Below, piece by piece: positions 1-35,594 of a DNA stretch of 43,148 bases. The stretch spans positions 1 to 43,148 of IMG/VR virus record IMGVR_UViG_3300025282_002918; one strand, 5' to 3'. Origin of the DNA: a virus. The position numbers were made by a program, and so were the translations under genes. Numbering within the stretch: the first letter of the stretch is position 1; each line of letters begins with the position of its first letter. Below the pieces are notes generated by a model. The model was not told the DNA's origin. It saw only the letters and a list, made by a program, of their open reading frames with translations, and made no database searches.

Positions 1-807
1 ATTGGGATCGGCGCTCTAGCGGCCTCTGCCAGCGTCTGGGGCTATCTAAGTTTAGGCATTCTGGTTGATGCTGCATTTCCGGTACTTTCTAGCCTCACAA
101 TCGGTGGAACGGGTGTAGCTCAGAGAATGATCAGTGAATATCGCCAGAAATTGCAGATCAAGGGGATGTTTGGAACGTATGTCAGCCCCAAGCTGGTTCA
201 GCAATTGGTGGACGATCCATCCTTGATGAAGCTCGGCGGCGATACCAAGACCATGAGTTTTCTGTTTTGTGATATCGTTGGCTTCACCCCTATCTCGGAG
301 CATTTCAAAAACAACAACGATCCGCAGGGACTTGTCACCCTCATCAACCGTTTGCTGTCTGCCTTAACCGATGTGGTGCTGTCCCTCGATGGCACCATAG
401 ACAAGTACATGGGCGATTGTGTGATGGCGTTCTGGAACTCACCTGTGGATTGTCCCGACCATGAGGAAAGGGCTGTGACTTGTGCTGCCATGATGCTGGT
501 CGCGCTTGAACATCTCAATGAGGAACTTGAACTTGAGGGATTACCAAAATTAGGCATTGGTGTCGGGCTTAACACTGGGCCAGCAGTCGTGGGAAATATG
601 GGGGGCAAGCAGCGTTTCGATTACTCAGCTATCGGGGATAGCGTGAACGTGGCTGCTCGCTTGGAAAGCAGTTCAAGAAAGTATTCCGAAGATGTTTTGA
701 TTGGCGAGGCGACAGCCAAAGCTGTGCCTGAGTTGGTGAAATATTTGGATTCAATTCAAGTTAAAGGTAAAGAGGAACGGTTAGAGGTTTATACATTGCG
801 TAACTAA
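1..807 (+). CDS. Class III adenylate cyclase, 3' part (5' end outside window)
   Basis: The reading frame is open from base 1 and gives about 268 residues. It begins with one or two hydrophobic segments, followed by a complete class III nucleotide cyclase domain. Visible motifs are FCDIVGFT (first metal Asp), DKYMGDCVMAFW (second metal Asp and base-contact Lys), NTGPAVVGNMG, and YSAIGDSVNVAARLE (Asp of the adenine-selective type plus the Asn/Arg catalytic segment). The protein should make cAMP from ATP. A membrane segment just before the cyclase domain is typical of CHASE2-cyclase receptors, but the sensor part is not in the window. The family is normally cellular, so this may be flanking host DNA or an unusual phage gene. 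It runs head-on into the minus-strand methyltransferase. Confidence 0.9.
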   Translation: MGIGALAASASVWGYLSLGILVDAAFPVLSSLTIGGTGVAQRMISEYRQKLQIKGMFGTYVSPKLVQQLVDDPSLMKLGGDTKTMSFLFCDIVGFTPISEHFKNNNDPQGLVTLINRLLSALTDVVLSLDGTIDKYMGDCVMAFWNSPVDCPDHEERAVTCAAMMLVALEHLNEELELEGLPKLGIGVGLNTGPAVVGNMGGKQRFDYSAIGDSVNVAARLESSSRKYSEDVLIGEATAKAVPELVKYLDSIQVKGKEERLEVYTLRN

Positions 808-912: not shown

Positions 913-1828
913 CTTTCATTTCTTCATCAAGAATAAATCTGCCTAAAGCCTCAACCACCTGTGGCACGACAGCATTACCGAGCGACTTCAGACGCGGTGT
1001 GCGATCAGGGCATCCATTGATCACTCTTGGGATTCCTCCAGGTTCGTCCAGCCATCTGGAAACCCCATCAGGAACTCTACAAACGCTGGATTGAGTTGAC
1101 CATGAACCTTCTGACGTTCCCCCGCCTCGTTTATCACTTTTGTCGTTAAACTTTCCTGTGAACCCTTTTTCCCTCGGCTCCTGTCTTGATAGCCGAGTCT
1201 CGCTTCGTGGCTCATGGGCGTCGGCCACAGACGAGGATCTCGCACCTGTTGGGAAAGATGGATTTGATGGCGTTCTGCGAGTTTGCTCGTCATGGCGTGT
1301 TTGTAGGATGTTGCTATTGTGTACGCCTCGGCTCGATCCTCGCTGGCGTTTGGCGTTTGCCACAATCCAGACTCGATCCCGCCTGTGCGGGGCATCGACG
1401 GCGCAAGCTGGAACAACAAACGATTGTGTGGCGTAACCCGAATCTTCCAAGTCAGAAAGCACCGTGTCGAGTTCCATGTTGATGATGCCACTAACATTTT
1501 CGCCAACGACCCAAGCTGACTCCACCTCCCGTATGACTCGTAGCATTTCAGGCCAGAGTGCGCGGTCATCTTCCGAGCCTCGCTGGTTCCCGGCGACACT
1601 GAATGGTTGGCAAGGAAATCCACCGCAAACAAGCTGAGTTGCCCCTCTGTATTGTCGTCCATCTAATTCCTCAATATTGTCGTGAATCGGTACATCAGGC
1701 CAGTGCTTTGCAAGTACCTTGCGACAGAACGGATCAGTCTCGCAAAATGCCACTGTCTCCATCCCAGCACGTTCCAAGCCAAGGCTAAAGCCGCCGATGC
1801 CTGAAAACAAGTCAAGCACGGTCATCAT
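905..1828 (-). CDS. dcm: C5-cytosine DNA methyltransferase
   Basis: This 307-residue protein transfers a methyl group from S-adenosylmethionine to C5 of cytosine in DNA. Motif I is DLFSGIGGFSLGLERAG (about residues 6-22). Motif IV is GGFPCQPFS with catalytic Cys73. The ENV of motif VI is at 110-112, a QRGS-like element is near 82, motif VIII is APHRRDRVW, and motif X is LKSLGNAVVPQV near the C-terminus. The target-recognition region between VIII and X is short, as in phage-borne enzymes. No restriction endonuclease is adjacent, so the likely role is protecting phage DNA from host restriction. It is the last gene of the leftward operon. Its ATG overlaps the TGA of the preceding zinc-ribbon gene. 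Its central part is overprinted by a second ORF (1021-1662). Confidence 0.93.
   Translation of the reverse strand: MMTVLDLFSGIGGFSLGLERAGMETVAFCETDPFCRKVLAKHWPDVPIHDNIEELDGRQYRGATQLVCGGFPCQPFSVAGNQRGSEDDRALWPEMLRVIREVESAWVVGENVSGIINMELDTVLSDLEDSGYATQSFVVPACAVDAPHRRDRVWIVANAKRQRGSSRGVHNSNILQTRHDEQTRRTPSNPSFPTGARSSSVADAHEPRSETRLSRQEPREKGFTGKFNDKSDKRGGGTSEGSWSTQSSVCRVPDGVSRWLDEPGGIPRVINGCPDRTPRLKSLGNAVVPQVVEALGRFILDEEMKES
1021..1662 (-). CDS. Overprinted ORF inside the methyltransferase gene (putative second protein)
   Basis: A 213-residue frame lies wholly within the methyltransferase gene, on the same strand in another frame. Its ATG is preceded by GAGGAATTAG, a well-spaced Shine-Dalgarno sequence. 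The translation does not read like random shadow sequence. It has QLSLFAVDF near the start, LASSTWNSTRCFLTWK, LFQLAPSMPRTGGIESGLW, two WxTP segments, and ends in LNPAFVEFLMGFPDGWTNLE. I associate that last signature with proteins or extensions that accompany phage cytosine methyltransferases, sometimes as separate genes. It may be a genuine overlapping gene, perhaps a methyltransferase partner. It may instead only look conserved because the methyltransferase frame constrains the DNA. Function unknown. Confidence 0.5.
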   Translation of the reverse strand: MDDNTEGQLSLFAVDFLANHSVSPGTSEARKMTAHSGLKCYESYGRWSQLGSLAKMLVASSTWNSTRCFLTWKIRVTPHNRLLFQLAPSMPRTGGIESGLWQTPNASEDRAEAYTIATSYKHAMTSKLAERHQIHLSQQVRDPRLWPTPMSHEARLGYQDRSRGKKGSQESLTTKVINEAGERQKVHGQLNPAFVEFLMGFPDGWTNLEESQE

Positions 1829-31201: not shown

Positions 31202-31632
31202 TGGCAATCACCCAAGCAATGTGTACGTCTTTCAAGAAAGAACTCATGGAAGCGAAGCACAATTTTTTACTCTCAGGGGGTAATACATTCAATCTGGCGC
31301 TGTACACCAGTTCAGCCACGATGAGTGCTGCCACCACGGCGTATACCACCTCTCAAGAAGCGACGGGTACGAATTATACGGCCAAGGGTGCTTCCCTGAC
31401 TCGGATAGACCCCACCACGTCTGGCACCACGGCGTTTACGGACTTTGCCGATTTAACTTTCGGTACCTGCACGATCACGGCGCGAGGCTGCATGATCTTT
31501 AACGATTCAGCATCGGGCGATCCGGCGGTGGCGGTGTTTGATTTTGGCGGTAACAAGACTTCTACCGCAGGCAGTTTTACGATCACGTTCCCAACGGCGG
31601 ACGCCAGTAACGCGGTGATCCGCATAGCGTAG
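31201..31632 (+). CDS. Putative tail structural protein
   Basis: 143 residues, Thr/Ala-rich and beta-rich (FNLALYTSSATMSAATTAYT, ARGCMIFNDSASGDPAVAVF, DFGGNKTSTAGSFTITFPTA). It resembles the short proteins ahead of fibre genes in podoviruses. Function is inferred from position. Confidence 0.65.
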   Translation: MAITQAMCTSFKKELMEAKHNFLLSGGNTFNLALYTSSATMSAATTAYTTSQEATGTNYTAKGASLTRIDPTTSGTTAFTDFADLTFGTCTITARGCMIFNDSASGDPAVAVFDFGGNKTSTAGSFTITFPTADASNAVIRIA

Positions 31633-31642
31633 TGAGAGTGAT

Positions 31643-32407
31643 GTGGCAAATATTACAGGTTGGGGCCGGAGTACATGGGGATCGCTCACTTGGGGTGAGC
31701 CGGTTCCTGTCGAACTTACCGGTCTTGCCGGTACGTCGGCGCTTGGTTCGGTTAGTGTCAGTGCTGCGGCGAATGTCGCTGTCACGGGCCTTGCAGGTAC
31801 CGGCGCTGTCGGTACGTTGGTTGCCACAGGTGTTGCCAATGTTGCGGTTACGGGGTTGGCAGGTACGGGCGCGGTTAGCTCACTTAGTATCGCTGCTGCG
31901 GCCAATGTTGCGGTCACGGGCCTTGCGGGCACGGGTGCTGTTGGCACGTTACTGGCAGCGGGCTATGCGATTACCGGCGTCAGCGGTACGGCATCTACGG
32001 TTGGGTTGGGCGATGAAACGGTTACCGGTGACGCGAATGTCTACCCGACAGGGGTGGCAGGCACTTCGGCGTTGGGCAGCATCACGCTCATCACCAATAA
32101 CATCATCAGCCTTACTGATCTGGGAGCGGCTACAGGTAGCTTGGGGTCGGTTACGGCTTCTGGTGCTTCAGGTATTACGCTTGAAGGTTTGGCAGGAACC
32201 GGTGAAATCACGCAGGTTCTGGTATGGGGGCTTGTGGACACGGATCAGACCCCGAATTGGGGTGCAATTTCGACAACACAAACACCAAGCTGGTCTGCTG
32301 TTTCGACCACTCAAGATCCTTCTTGGTCATCGGTGTCCACGTCACAAACACCTAGCTGGAGTTCGGTAGACAGTGATCAGACTCCTGAATGGAAAAAGGT
32401 AGCTTAA
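31643..32407 (+). CDS. Repeat-rich tail-associated protein
   Basis: 254 residues from a GTG. The first part is MANITGWGRSTWGSLTWGEP. The middle has repeated VTGLAGTGAVGTL units (at least four). The C-terminus has a tandem 11-residue repeat (SVSTTQDPSWSS type, five copies, TxxPxW consensus). This suggests a fibrous, stalk-like protein next to the fibre gene. The other same-strand frame (31632-32369) is a shadow of the low-complexity sequence and I do not call it. Confidence 0.68.
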   Translation: MANITGWGRSTWGSLTWGEPVPVELTGLAGTSALGSVSVSAAANVAVTGLAGTGAVGTLVATGVANVAVTGLAGTGAVSSLSIAAAANVAVTGLAGTGAVGTLLAAGYAITGVSGTASTVGLGDETVTGDANVYPTGVAGTSALGSITLITNNIISLTDLGAATGSLGSVTASGASGITLEGLAGTGEITQVLVWGLVDTDQTPNWGAISTTQTPSWSAVSTTQDPSWSSVSTSQTPSWSSVDSDQTPEWKKVA

Positions 32408-32408
32408 A

Positions 32409-35400
32409 ATGGCAACTTATGTAAACGATCTTAGATTAAAAGAAATCGCTACCGGCGATGAGTCAGGGACTTGGGGAGACAGCACCAACACCAACTTAGA
32501 GTTGATAGGCGAAGCCTTTGGTAGCGGTTCAGAAGGCATCACGGGAACGACGCACACGATCACGATAGCTGATGGAACGTCCGACGCGGCCCGAGCGATG
32601 GTCATGACTTTAACAGGGTCTACCACTGCTCTTAACACCGTCACCCTCGCACCTAACACGGTGAATAAAGTCTGGGTTATCCAGAACTCGGCTGGTTACG
32701 CGGTTTCAATCAGCCAAGGCACGGGCGCTAATGTCGTGATCCCCAATGGCGGAATCAAGATGGTTGTGGCTGACGGTGCGGGCGCAGGCGCGGCGGTAAC
32801 CGATGTGTTAGACCTCACGGGAGGTACTGGAAACATTGGTTTAGGTAGTGGTTCTTTAGGCACGGCGTTAACGACCGGTACTGACAATGTAGCTATCGGT
32901 GAAGCGGCACTTGATGCAGCAACCACGGGTTCCGACAACACCGCTGTGGGAGACAATGCCGGGGGCGCATTAACCACGGGCAGCAACAGCGTCGCTATTG
33001 GTTCTTCGGCTTTATTGGTAGCCACGACCGCTGCCGATAACACGGCAGTCGGGACCGACACGCTTAAAGCCAATTCCACGGGAACCGATAACACGGCGGT
33101 GGGTTATGCAGCGGGTGATGCTGTAACCACAGGATCGGATAATACTTTTGTCGGAGACAATGCCGGAGGGGCCGTTTCTACGGCTTCAGGCCATACGGCG
33201 GTGGGTTCTTCGGCATTGCTTACGATGTCCACCGGTACAACCGGAACGGCGGTAGGCTTTGAGGCGCTCAAGGTAGCTACCGGGAATAACAACACAGCAG
33301 TTGGCTACCAAGCAGGTGTAGCCGTAAGCACTGCAGCTAATTGCACCATAATCGGTTCTGCAGCCGGGGATGCTTTGAGTACCGGGGCTAATAACACACT
33401 GGTTGGTAAAGACGCTGGAGGAGCCCTAACTACGGCTGCGGGCAATACGGCTATCGGGCAGGGCGCTTTAGTAACTTCAACCACGGGCCCAGAGCATGTT
33501 GCGATAGGTAAGGACGCTTTAAGTCTTATGGCGACCGGCGAGGCATGTGTAGCAGTCGGGAATGAGGCTTTGAAGGCGAATTTAGGCAGCAGCAATACTG
33601 CGGTTGGTTATCAAAGTATGGATGCCTGCACCACCGGAACGCAGTTGACGGCTGTTGGTCGGAATTCTTTAGGTGCTGTTACAACCGGATCAGGTCTTGT
33701 GGCTATGGGAATGTCTGCTTTGTCTACGATAACCACCGGAACGAATGGAACGGCGGTAGGTTTTGAGGCACTGAAAGTTGCGACGGGTAATGACAATACA
33801 GCAGTAGGGTATCAGGCTGGGGTTGCGGTCAGTACAGGAACCGATAACACTCTATTTGGTAATGCCGCAGGCGATGCGAATACCACAGGTTCTGACAACA
33901 CCTTCATAGGAGACAACGCAGGCGGAGCCAACACGACAGCAAGTAATAACACCGCTGTCGGGTCAAATGCTTTGCTTGCCAACACCACAGGTAATCATTT
34001 GGTCGCTGTTGGCGATGATTGTTTGGCATCGAACACGACCGGGGCCAGAAATACGGTAGTCGGCAGAAATGCAATGTATGCCAACACCACCGGAACCGGC
34101 AACACTGCGATAGGAAACAATGCATTAACCACAGCCACCGAAGCAGACGACAATGTTGCCATTGGCAGAAGTTCTTTAAATGCTCTTACCAGTGGAGTTG
34201 ATAACACCGCAGTAGGTGCTTATTCAGGTGACGCTATAACCACCGGTAGCGACAACACCGCGATTGGTGACAATGCATTAGGTGCAGTAACAACTGGCAG
34301 CGATAACACGGCAGTAGGGTCATCTGCTTTATTGGCAAGTACGGGAGCAGGTAATACAGCGGTCGGGGCTTATGCCTTGGATGCCAACCAAGCCGATGAT
34401 GTTACGGCTGTTGGTAAAAATGCCCTAACAGCCAATACGACAGGAACCAATAATGTCTCCGTGGGGGCTTATTCCGGGGAAGCTGTAACGACGGGGACTA
34501 ATAATACTTTTATCGGAACGAAGGCTGGACGTGCTGTCACTACAGCATCAGGTCATACGGCAGTGGGTAATGCAGCATTGCTTACAATGACCACCGGAAC
34601 GACAGGTACGGCGGTCGGCTTTGAAGCACTTAAAGTTGCGACGGGTAATGACAATACAGCAGTTGGCTATCAGGCTGGTGTGGCCATAACGACGGGAAAT
34701 TACAATACCGCTTTAGGCCAAGGCGCTTTAAGTACAGCGACAACTGTAAATGCAAACACGGCTATTGGTAATGATGCGCTGAGAACGGCTGCCGGAGCAT
34801 ATAATACAGCGGTAGGTGCTTCTGCAGCGAATGCAATCACGACAGGAGCAAACAATGTTGCTATCGGCGCGAATGCGATGGATGCCGCGACCACCGGAGA
34901 CTCAAATACGGCGGTTGGTTATCAGAGTTTGGACGCCAACACGACAGCCAGTAACAATACCGCTGTGGGTAAAGATTCTTTAGGAGCCGTAACGACCGGT
35001 ACATCGAATGTTGGTCTAGGTCAGGCTACAGGACAAGCTTTAACAACCGGGGCTTATAACGTATTGATTGGCCAAGGTGTGAATGTTGATGGCTCGACTG
35101 CTGAAGGACAGATTGTCATTGGTCGAAATGTTGCGAGTGGCGGAAATGATAGTGTCCGGTTTGGGCAGGCTGGCAACACGCTGACTATAGCTTTGAACGG
35201 TTCAACAACGTCTTGGACGGCGGCTTCGGACGAACGGTTGAAAGAGAATATTGAACCTGCTGCGGCAGGGTTATCTTTTATCAACGATTTGCGGCCAGTT
35301 ACATACAACTTCAGAAAGGCCAAGGATGTGCCATCGGATTTTCCCGGTTATCAAGAAGGTTCTGATGAGCCATGTCTTGGACATGATTACGGGACAGTCA

Positions 35401-35594
35401 ATCACGGGTTTGTCGCTCAAGAAGTTAAAGCAGTGATTGATAATCACCCGGAAGTAAAAGAAGGCTTTGATATGTGGAATACTGCGAGCGATGGGGTACA
35501 GCACATCGGAGATGGGGCTTTAGTTCCGATGTTGGTTAAAGCGGTTCAGGAGCTTTCAGCAAAGATTAAGAAACTTGAAGAGGAGGATGAATGA
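32409..35594 (+). CDS. Tail fibre with YadA-like repeats and peptidase S74 chaperone end
   Basis: 1061 residues. The N-terminus (LRLKEIATGDESGTWGDSTN, TNLELIGEAFG) is the adaptor found in aquatic podovirus fibres. Residues about 140-920 are a long array of NTAVGxxAGxAxTTGxxN units, the collagen-like head repeat seen in YadA/trimeric adhesins. A ~50-residue block around TAVGFEALKVATGN occurs three times (about residues 280, 448 and 734). Near residue 940 begins AASDERLKENIEP, the cleavage/active-site motif of the intramolecular chaperone (Ser940/Lys945), followed by HGFVAQEVKAVI and a coiled end; autocleavage before Ser940 would release the 122-residue chaperone. It binds host receptors. Confidence 0.9.
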   Translation: MATYVNDLRLKEIATGDESGTWGDSTNTNLELIGEAFGSGSEGITGTTHTITIADGTSDAARAMVMTLTGSTTALNTVTLAPNTVNKVWVIQNSAGYAVSISQGTGANVVIPNGGIKMVVADGAGAGAAVTDVLDLTGGTGNIGLGSGSLGTALTTGTDNVAIGEAALDAATTGSDNTAVGDNAGGALTTGSNSVAIGSSALLVATTAADNTAVGTDTLKANSTGTDNTAVGYAAGDAVTTGSDNTFVGDNAGGAVSTASGHTAVGSSALLTMSTGTTGTAVGFEALKVATGNNNTAVGYQAGVAVSTAANCTIIGSAAGDALSTGANNTLVGKDAGGALTTAAGNTAIGQGALVTSTTGPEHVAIGKDALSLMATGEACVAVGNEALKANLGSSNTAVGYQSMDACTTGTQLTAVGRNSLGAVTTGSGLVAMGMSALSTITTGTNGTAVGFEALKVATGNDNTAVGYQAGVAVSTGTDNTLFGNAAGDANTTGSDNTFIGDNAGGANTTASNNTAVGSNALLANTTGNHLVAVGDDCLASNTTGARNTVVGRNAMYANTTGTGNTAIGNNALTTATEADDNVAIGRSSLNALTSGVDNTAVGAYSGDAITTGSDNTAIGDNALGAVTTGSDNTAVGSSALLASTGAGNTAVGAYALDANQADDVTAVGKNALTANTTGTNNVSVGAYSGEAVTTGTNNTFIGTKAGRAVTTASGHTAVGNAALLTMTTGTTGTAVGFEALKVATGNDNTAVGYQAGVAITTGNYNTALGQGALSTATTVNANTAIGNDALRTAAGAYNTAVGASAANAITTGANNVAIGANAMDAATTGDSNTAVGYQSLDANTTASNNTAVGKDSLGAVTTGTSNVGLGQATGQALTTGAYNVLIGQGVNVDGSTAEGQIVIGRNVASGGNDSVRFGQAGNTLTIALNGSTTSWTAASDERLKENIEPAAAGLSFINDLRPVTYNFRKAKDVPSDFPGYQEGSDEPCLGHDYGTVNHGFVAQEVKAVIDNHPEVKEGFDMWNTASDGVQHIGDGALVPMLVKAVQELSAKIKKLEEEDE

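Follow-up and report, generated by a model that had tools for sequence, protein, structure and literature searches.

A reading frame nested in a phage C5-cytosine methyltransferase gene as the probable gene of a second, motif IX-carrying subunit

The virus record IMGVR_UViG_3300025282_002918, whose 43,148 nucleotides constitute the window analyzed here, contains terminase, capsid, and DnaB/primase genes and, on the minus strand, the 307-codon gene of a C5-cytosine DNA methyltransferase. Entirely inside this gene and on the same strand lies a second open reading frame (ORF) of 213 codons, which runs from an ATG to a stop codon in the +1 frame relative to the methyltransferase frame (frame 0) and starts at the second base of methyltransferase codon 56 (Table 1). 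To our knowledge, there are few established cases in bacteria and phages in which two proteins of unrelated appearance are encoded in long overlapping frames of one strand. The locus raises the question of whether the nested ORF is a gene and what its product would do. In all likelihood, it is the translated gene of a second (beta) subunit of the very methyltransferase in which it is nested. The alpha polypeptide encoded in frame 0 would comprise the catalytic domain with motifs I-VIII as well as motif X, and the beta polypeptide would contribute motif IX and probably the target-recognition domain (TRD), the latter residing in its variable WxTP-repeat part. Ribosomes would initiate beta independently at an internal Shine-Dalgarno (SD) sequence and ATG, some 55 codons downstream of the alpha start. 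Alpha and beta, both being required, would assemble into one active DNA methylase, which presumably shields the phage DNA from host restriction.

Start signal and coding constraint of the nested frame

The beta ATG is directly preceded by GAGGAATTAG (context ...AATATTGAGGAATTAGATGGACG...), and its product contains FLTWK and WQTP/WPTP and ends in LNPAFVEFLMGFPDGWT. The original prediction had described a 213-codon frame, on the same strand and wholly within the methyltransferase, with its own, correctly placed ribosome-binding site and with FLTWK, WxTP repeats, and a characteristic terminal segment in its product; its coordinates and SD sequence proved exact, the ribosome-binding site is a good one, and all three kinds of segment are present in the translation. 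As a null, synonymous shuffles were used in which the methyltransferase protein and its codon usage are preserved. Compared with these, the open length of the +1 frame of the window is by itself only moderately unusual (213 codons vs a shuffle mean of about 130, p about 0.02), and relatives were therefore gathered for a comparative test.

Eighty viral loci were collected by the methyltransferase protein alone, 78 of them being testable for the +1 frame; these include a few near-identical ones, of which three are copies of the gene in the window itself. A significantly long +1 frame is present in 78/78 relatives, with a mean observed/expected ratio of 2.38, and neither interrupting stops nor a lack of conservation was seen. 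The +2 frame of the same relatives is at chance (observed/expected 0.94; 4% with p<=0.05). When 250 unrelated genes of these loci were tested, significantly long frames were found in 20% (+1) and 14% (+2), from which it follows that the length test has some false positives, at a rate far below 100%. Against the family profile, scores of 140-252 bits are obtained for the +1 translations, while no shuffled translation exceeds 126.5, whatever the locus; about 70 bits of this similarity, as judged from the scores of shuffled sequences, are mechanical and due to the conserved methyltransferase frame.

Constraint is also evident at the codon level. Variation at methyltransferase codon positions 1/2/3, taken from 29 close pairs, is 0.253/0.194/0.262 inside the overlap and 0.195/0.147/0.342 outside it; the usual third-position excess of the methyltransferase is mostly gone within the overlap. 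In the catalytic part of the overlap both frames are constrained, the ratio of non-synonymous to synonymous change (dN/dS) of beta at methyltransferase-synonymous sites being about 0.25-0.35. The methyltransferase is near-neutral over the TRD part (dN/dS 0.82-0.88), where beta lies at 0.68-0.80; in the tail the values are 0.60-0.97 and 0.53-0.66, respectively, so that beta is the more constrained frame in both parts. The most variable position of the TRD part is the wobble position of beta, which corresponds to methyltransferase position 1. On the 3' side of the beta stop, the constraint on the methyltransferase is back (dN/dS 0.33-0.52). Third-position suppression and the dN/dS of beta both amount to constraint beyond that of the methyltransferase frame.

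Most relatives share a +1 stop near methyltransferase codon 52-60, followed by an ATG, rarely a GTG, with an SD sequence. The best start-SD energy averages -6.3 in the +1 frame vs -2.9 in shuffles, the corresponding values for the +2 frame being -1.7 vs -3.8. The conserved succession of stop, ATG, and SD favors independent initiation over frameshifting.

These data have to be weighed against the view that the +1 ORF is an untranslated shadow, its conservation being a by-product of the methyltransferase frame and of codon usage. The mechanical share of the similarity would fit this view, as would the nesting of every profile match in a methyltransferase and the fact that the N-terminal halves of this and of a second nested family, described below, align almost equally after shuffling. 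It is nevertheless highly improbable, since open length, profile score, third-position suppression, start and SD sequence, and the dominance of beta in the TRD part and the tail exceed what is found in shuffles or in the +2 frame, and motif IX is present in the +1 frame, not in frame 0. Judging from these sequence comparisons, the nested ORF is a real gene.

Division of the methyltransferase motifs between the two frames

The AlphaFold model of alpha shows a catalytic domain with predicted local distance difference test (pLDDT) values mostly >90, dropping at amino acids 71-90, the catalytic loop; in a Foldseek comparison the model matches M.HhaI with an expectation value (E) of 3e-13. The catalytic domain is followed by a stretch of about 120 residues that is predicted to be disordered, with pLDDT of about 38-47, and that lacks secondary structure up to a C-terminal helix spanning residues 276-306. 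In M.HhaI, the TRD and motif IX are located where alpha has this disordered stretch. The profile alignment with M.HhaI covers motifs I-VIII of alpha, the match of motif X being below significance.

Table 1. Features of the overlapping methyltransferase locus; aa, amino acids of the respective polypeptide.
Feature	Position	Strand	Basis
Alpha subunit, C5-cytosine DNA methyltransferase, 307 aa	905..1828	(-)	Pfam PF00145 E 1.5e-44, aa 2-183; phrog_363 4e-80
Alpha catalytic domain, motifs I-VIII (aa 2-163)	1340..1825	(-)	profile vs M.HhaI 12-176, E 1.6e-29
Alpha predicted disordered linker (about aa 163-281), place of TRD and motif IX	986..1342	(-)	AlphaFold
Alpha motif X (aa 271-305, PRLKSLGNAVVPQVVEALGRFI)	914..1018	(-)	hhalign columns 99-132, probability 94.8
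Nested +1-frame ORF (probable beta subunit, 213 aa)	1021..1662	(-)	coding tests; phrog_1008 E 2e-30
Shine-Dalgarno sequence GAGG(AATTAG) for beta	1663..1672	(-)	TAG 1663-1665 is the +1-frame stop abutting the ATG
Beta-hairpin, beta residues 69-89 (CFLTWKIRVTPHNRLLFQLAP)	1396..1458	(-)	AlphaFold pLDDT 86-91, confident
Beta variable WxTP-repeat region (aa 95-186), proposed TRD	1105..1380	(-)	selection; homologous in-frame ShiLan region; low-confidence model
Beta motif IX (aa 187-207, HGQLNPAFVEFLMGFPDGWTN)	1042..1104	(-)	hhalign columns 79-99, 52% identity, probability 96.2

In complete phage C5 methyltransferases, motif IX (...RRLTPxECERLQGFPDGWT) is followed by motif X (...RYRQLGNAVAVPVVEWI) in one chain, and a profile of this segment served as hhalign target. 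Since the C-terminal segment of beta aligns with columns 79-99 and that of alpha with columns 99-132, the segment is divided between the two frames, which meet at column 99. Of 139 nested loci, 125 have a motif IX-like string exclusively in the +1 frame, and of 71 complete methyltransferases, 53 have it exclusively in frame 0. Beta itself matches phrog_1008, a family labelled DNA methyltransferase, over residues 8-208 of 213 (E 2.1e-30); neither Pfam nor NCBIfam holds a family covering it. With motif IX in beta, and alpha predicted to be disordered at the place that these two elements occupy in M.HhaI, beta would be the subunit contributing motif IX and, probably, the TRD.

Alternatively, beta might be translated and act as a regulatory partner, for instance as an inhibitor, chaperone, or specificity modulator, without providing an essential motif. 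A partner of this kind could be pictured from the complete methyltransferases, where the nested ORF of the second type cannot replace a missing motif IX. For beta, however, this role is unlikely: it is beta, not alpha, that has motif IX, the TRD region of alpha is predicted to be disordered, and split relatives unite TRD, motif IX, and motif X in a homologous ORF.

The original suggestion that a methyltransferase and a partner protein are encoded in one DNA stretch is supported by the coding evidence and by motif IX in beta, whereas the suggestion that the partner is an inhibitor of restriction is not. A role of beta as an anti-restriction protein was rejected in view of its C-terminal end, which is a methyltransferase motif IX, of the layout resembling that of M.EcoHK31I, and of the missing match among 5027 PADLOC models at E 0.01, PADLOC being a collection of defence systems and not a dedicated anti-restriction library. 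No restriction endonuclease was found among the subset of window ORFs whose proteins were compared with PADLOC and Pfam; the one Pfam ResIII match in the window is part of an SNF2-type helicase.

Relatives and known two-chain methyltransferases

The beta family was found by tblastn in 84 phage records and belongs to PHROG family 1008; from a scan of bacterial and archaeal genomes, the best 80 of 312 candidate stretches were kept. Relatives occur in phages, prophages, and assemblies labelled Bacillota, Proteobacteria, Bacteroidetes, Acidobacteria, Coriobacteriia, and others, those examined in Enterobacteriaceae (E. coli included) being located in prophage-like regions. At 241/241 loci (some duplicates), the match to the beta profile overlaps a methyltransferase in the +1 frame. 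Similarity is thus mostly, but not completely, confined to frames in the shadow of a methyltransferase, for the module also occurs in separate ORFs and fused in frame. Motif VIII is the last one in the frame-0 ORF of the mycobacteriophages Familton and Twister, where the module is found together with motif X in an ORF of its own in the +1 frame, giving pairs of a truncated catalytic ORF and a module ORF (Familton gp7/gp6, Twister gp79/gp78). In ShiLan, the module forms the C-terminus (residues 196-388, E 2e-61) of a fused enzyme and continues the frame of the catalytic domain.

The fused forms, ShiLan and locus L054, invite the idea of a ribosomal frameshift by which beta would be fused to the catalytic part of alpha, giving a single enzyme. 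Such a frameshift is scarcely credible here, given that in most relatives the +1 stop is found just upstream of the conserved ATG with its SD sequence, and that motif X, which is encoded in frame 0 immediately 3' of the beta stop, would be missing from the fusion product unless a second shift took place. Independent initiation of a separate beta chain is therefore preferred.

Several records deviate in annotation or arrangement. Both overlapping split ORFs of Familton (L078:708-1659) and of Twister (L080:687-1680) are annotated as DNA methylase. Locus L054 (1570-3171) is chimeric, with an LPTP-repeat part in the +1 frame and the LNPAFTEWMMGFPDGWT tail and motif X in frame 0. In L055 (2344-3300), the WPTP part and the tail are in different frames, as if an indel lay between them, which may reflect a sequencing error, decay, or recoding. 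On a Paenibacillus bovis plasmid (L245:2145-3501), both frames look intact in translation, and the gene table shows short hypothetical proteins only.

Among methyltransferases of known composition, M.EcoHK31I and M.EaeI are two-polypeptide C5 enzymes with the recognition site YGGCCR, and the small ORF of M.EcoHK31I is said to lie within the large one, in a different frame, as beta does in alpha. As summarized in PMC3404938 (citing Lee, Kam and Shaw 1995), the large polypeptide of M.EcoHK31I contains motifs I-VIII, motif X, and a predicted TRD, and the small polypeptide contains motif IX alone. Taking that summary as it stands, a large chain with motifs I-VIII and X and a motif IX found only on the small chain are seen in the present system as well; the likeness is one of layout. 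The present system differs in being located in a phage, in having no restriction enzyme gene identified nearby, and in being widespread in phages and prophages. By analogy, it would be a widespread phage form of an M.EcoHK31I-like layout.

With M.AquI, an alpha/beta split C5 methyltransferase, it shares the formation of one C5 enzyme from two chains, but it keeps motif X on the large chain; the split forms of Familton and Twister are nearer to M.AquI in the placement of motif X. M.HhaI and other monomeric C5 methyltransferases possess the same catalytic domain and motif X, with TRD and motif IX in the same chain, whereas both are absent from frame 0 here. Shelly gp56 and Lily gp63 of Paenibacillus phages are direct relatives of beta in the same nested frame of the same kind of methyltransferase (Shelly gp56 vs phrog_1008, E 8e-74); their records call the product a hypothetical "internal gene", without a proposed function.

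A second nested family and its bearing on the two-subunit enzyme

Complete phage methyltransferases (loci L248-L327), found with the Rctr41k enzyme, had been meant as a negative control; as they turned out to have a nested ORF of their own, the 250 unrelated genes were taken instead. A significantly long +1 ORF is present in 89% of these methyltransferases, which keep their own motif IX. Its product of about 155 amino acids is conserved, ends in KYYLSPKACxGILRRAEKRGKxLP, and starts with an SD sequence at about the same place as beta (examples are L254:1605-2177, L250:2640-3140, and L266:248-757). In a split-half profile test the family scores 195 vs 71 in shuffles, 39/39 sequences being above the best shuffle; it matches phrog_16143, and no Pfam family was matched. 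Nested +1 genes would probably be a general feature of phage C5 methyltransferases, with the beta family providing motif IX and probably target recognition, and the second family having another role, perhaps that of an accessory subunit. A common ancestry of the N-terminal halves of both nested families was considered and dropped, because their similarity is hardly above that of synonymous shuffles.

Several of these observations weigh against beta as a motif IX and TRD subunit. Nested +1 ORFs in complete methyltransferases with their own motif IX imply that no motif need be missing for nesting to occur, and the shuffle-level similarity of the N-terminal halves has no bearing on ancestry. According to the summary in PMC3404938, the predicted TRD of M.EcoHK31I is in the large chain, whereas it is proposed in the small chain here. 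The AlphaFold model of beta alone (mean pLDDT 62) gave no match to a TRD-like fold in a Foldseek search of the PDB, nor did the beta-family profile match PDB sequences; the TRD assignment is thus based on position, selection, and the fused and split relatives. A poor model and a missing PDB match are to be expected for half a domain.

Elsewhere in the window, the sequence at 1-807(+) encodes an adenylate/guanylate cyclase catalytic domain; it is open at the left edge, adjoins phage genes, and may belong to the host, at the edge of a prophage. The ORF at 32409-35594(+), of 1061 amino acids, contains many TAVGxxAL/TGxxNTAVG-type repeats and an SDERLKENI segment at its end; we take it to resemble a tail-fibre protein with a chaperone domain. 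Two long ORFs overlapping in different frames, at 31632-32369(+) and 31643-32407(+), extend over repeated sequence and are probably a by-product of the repeats.

Annotation mostly records one of the two frames of an overlap that is old and common. If beta is the specificity subunit, the site methylated by the phage enzyme would be written in the hidden frame, and the annotated protein, cloned and assayed alone, would be inactive. The locus would then offer a concrete test case of one DNA stretch serving two interacting proteins.
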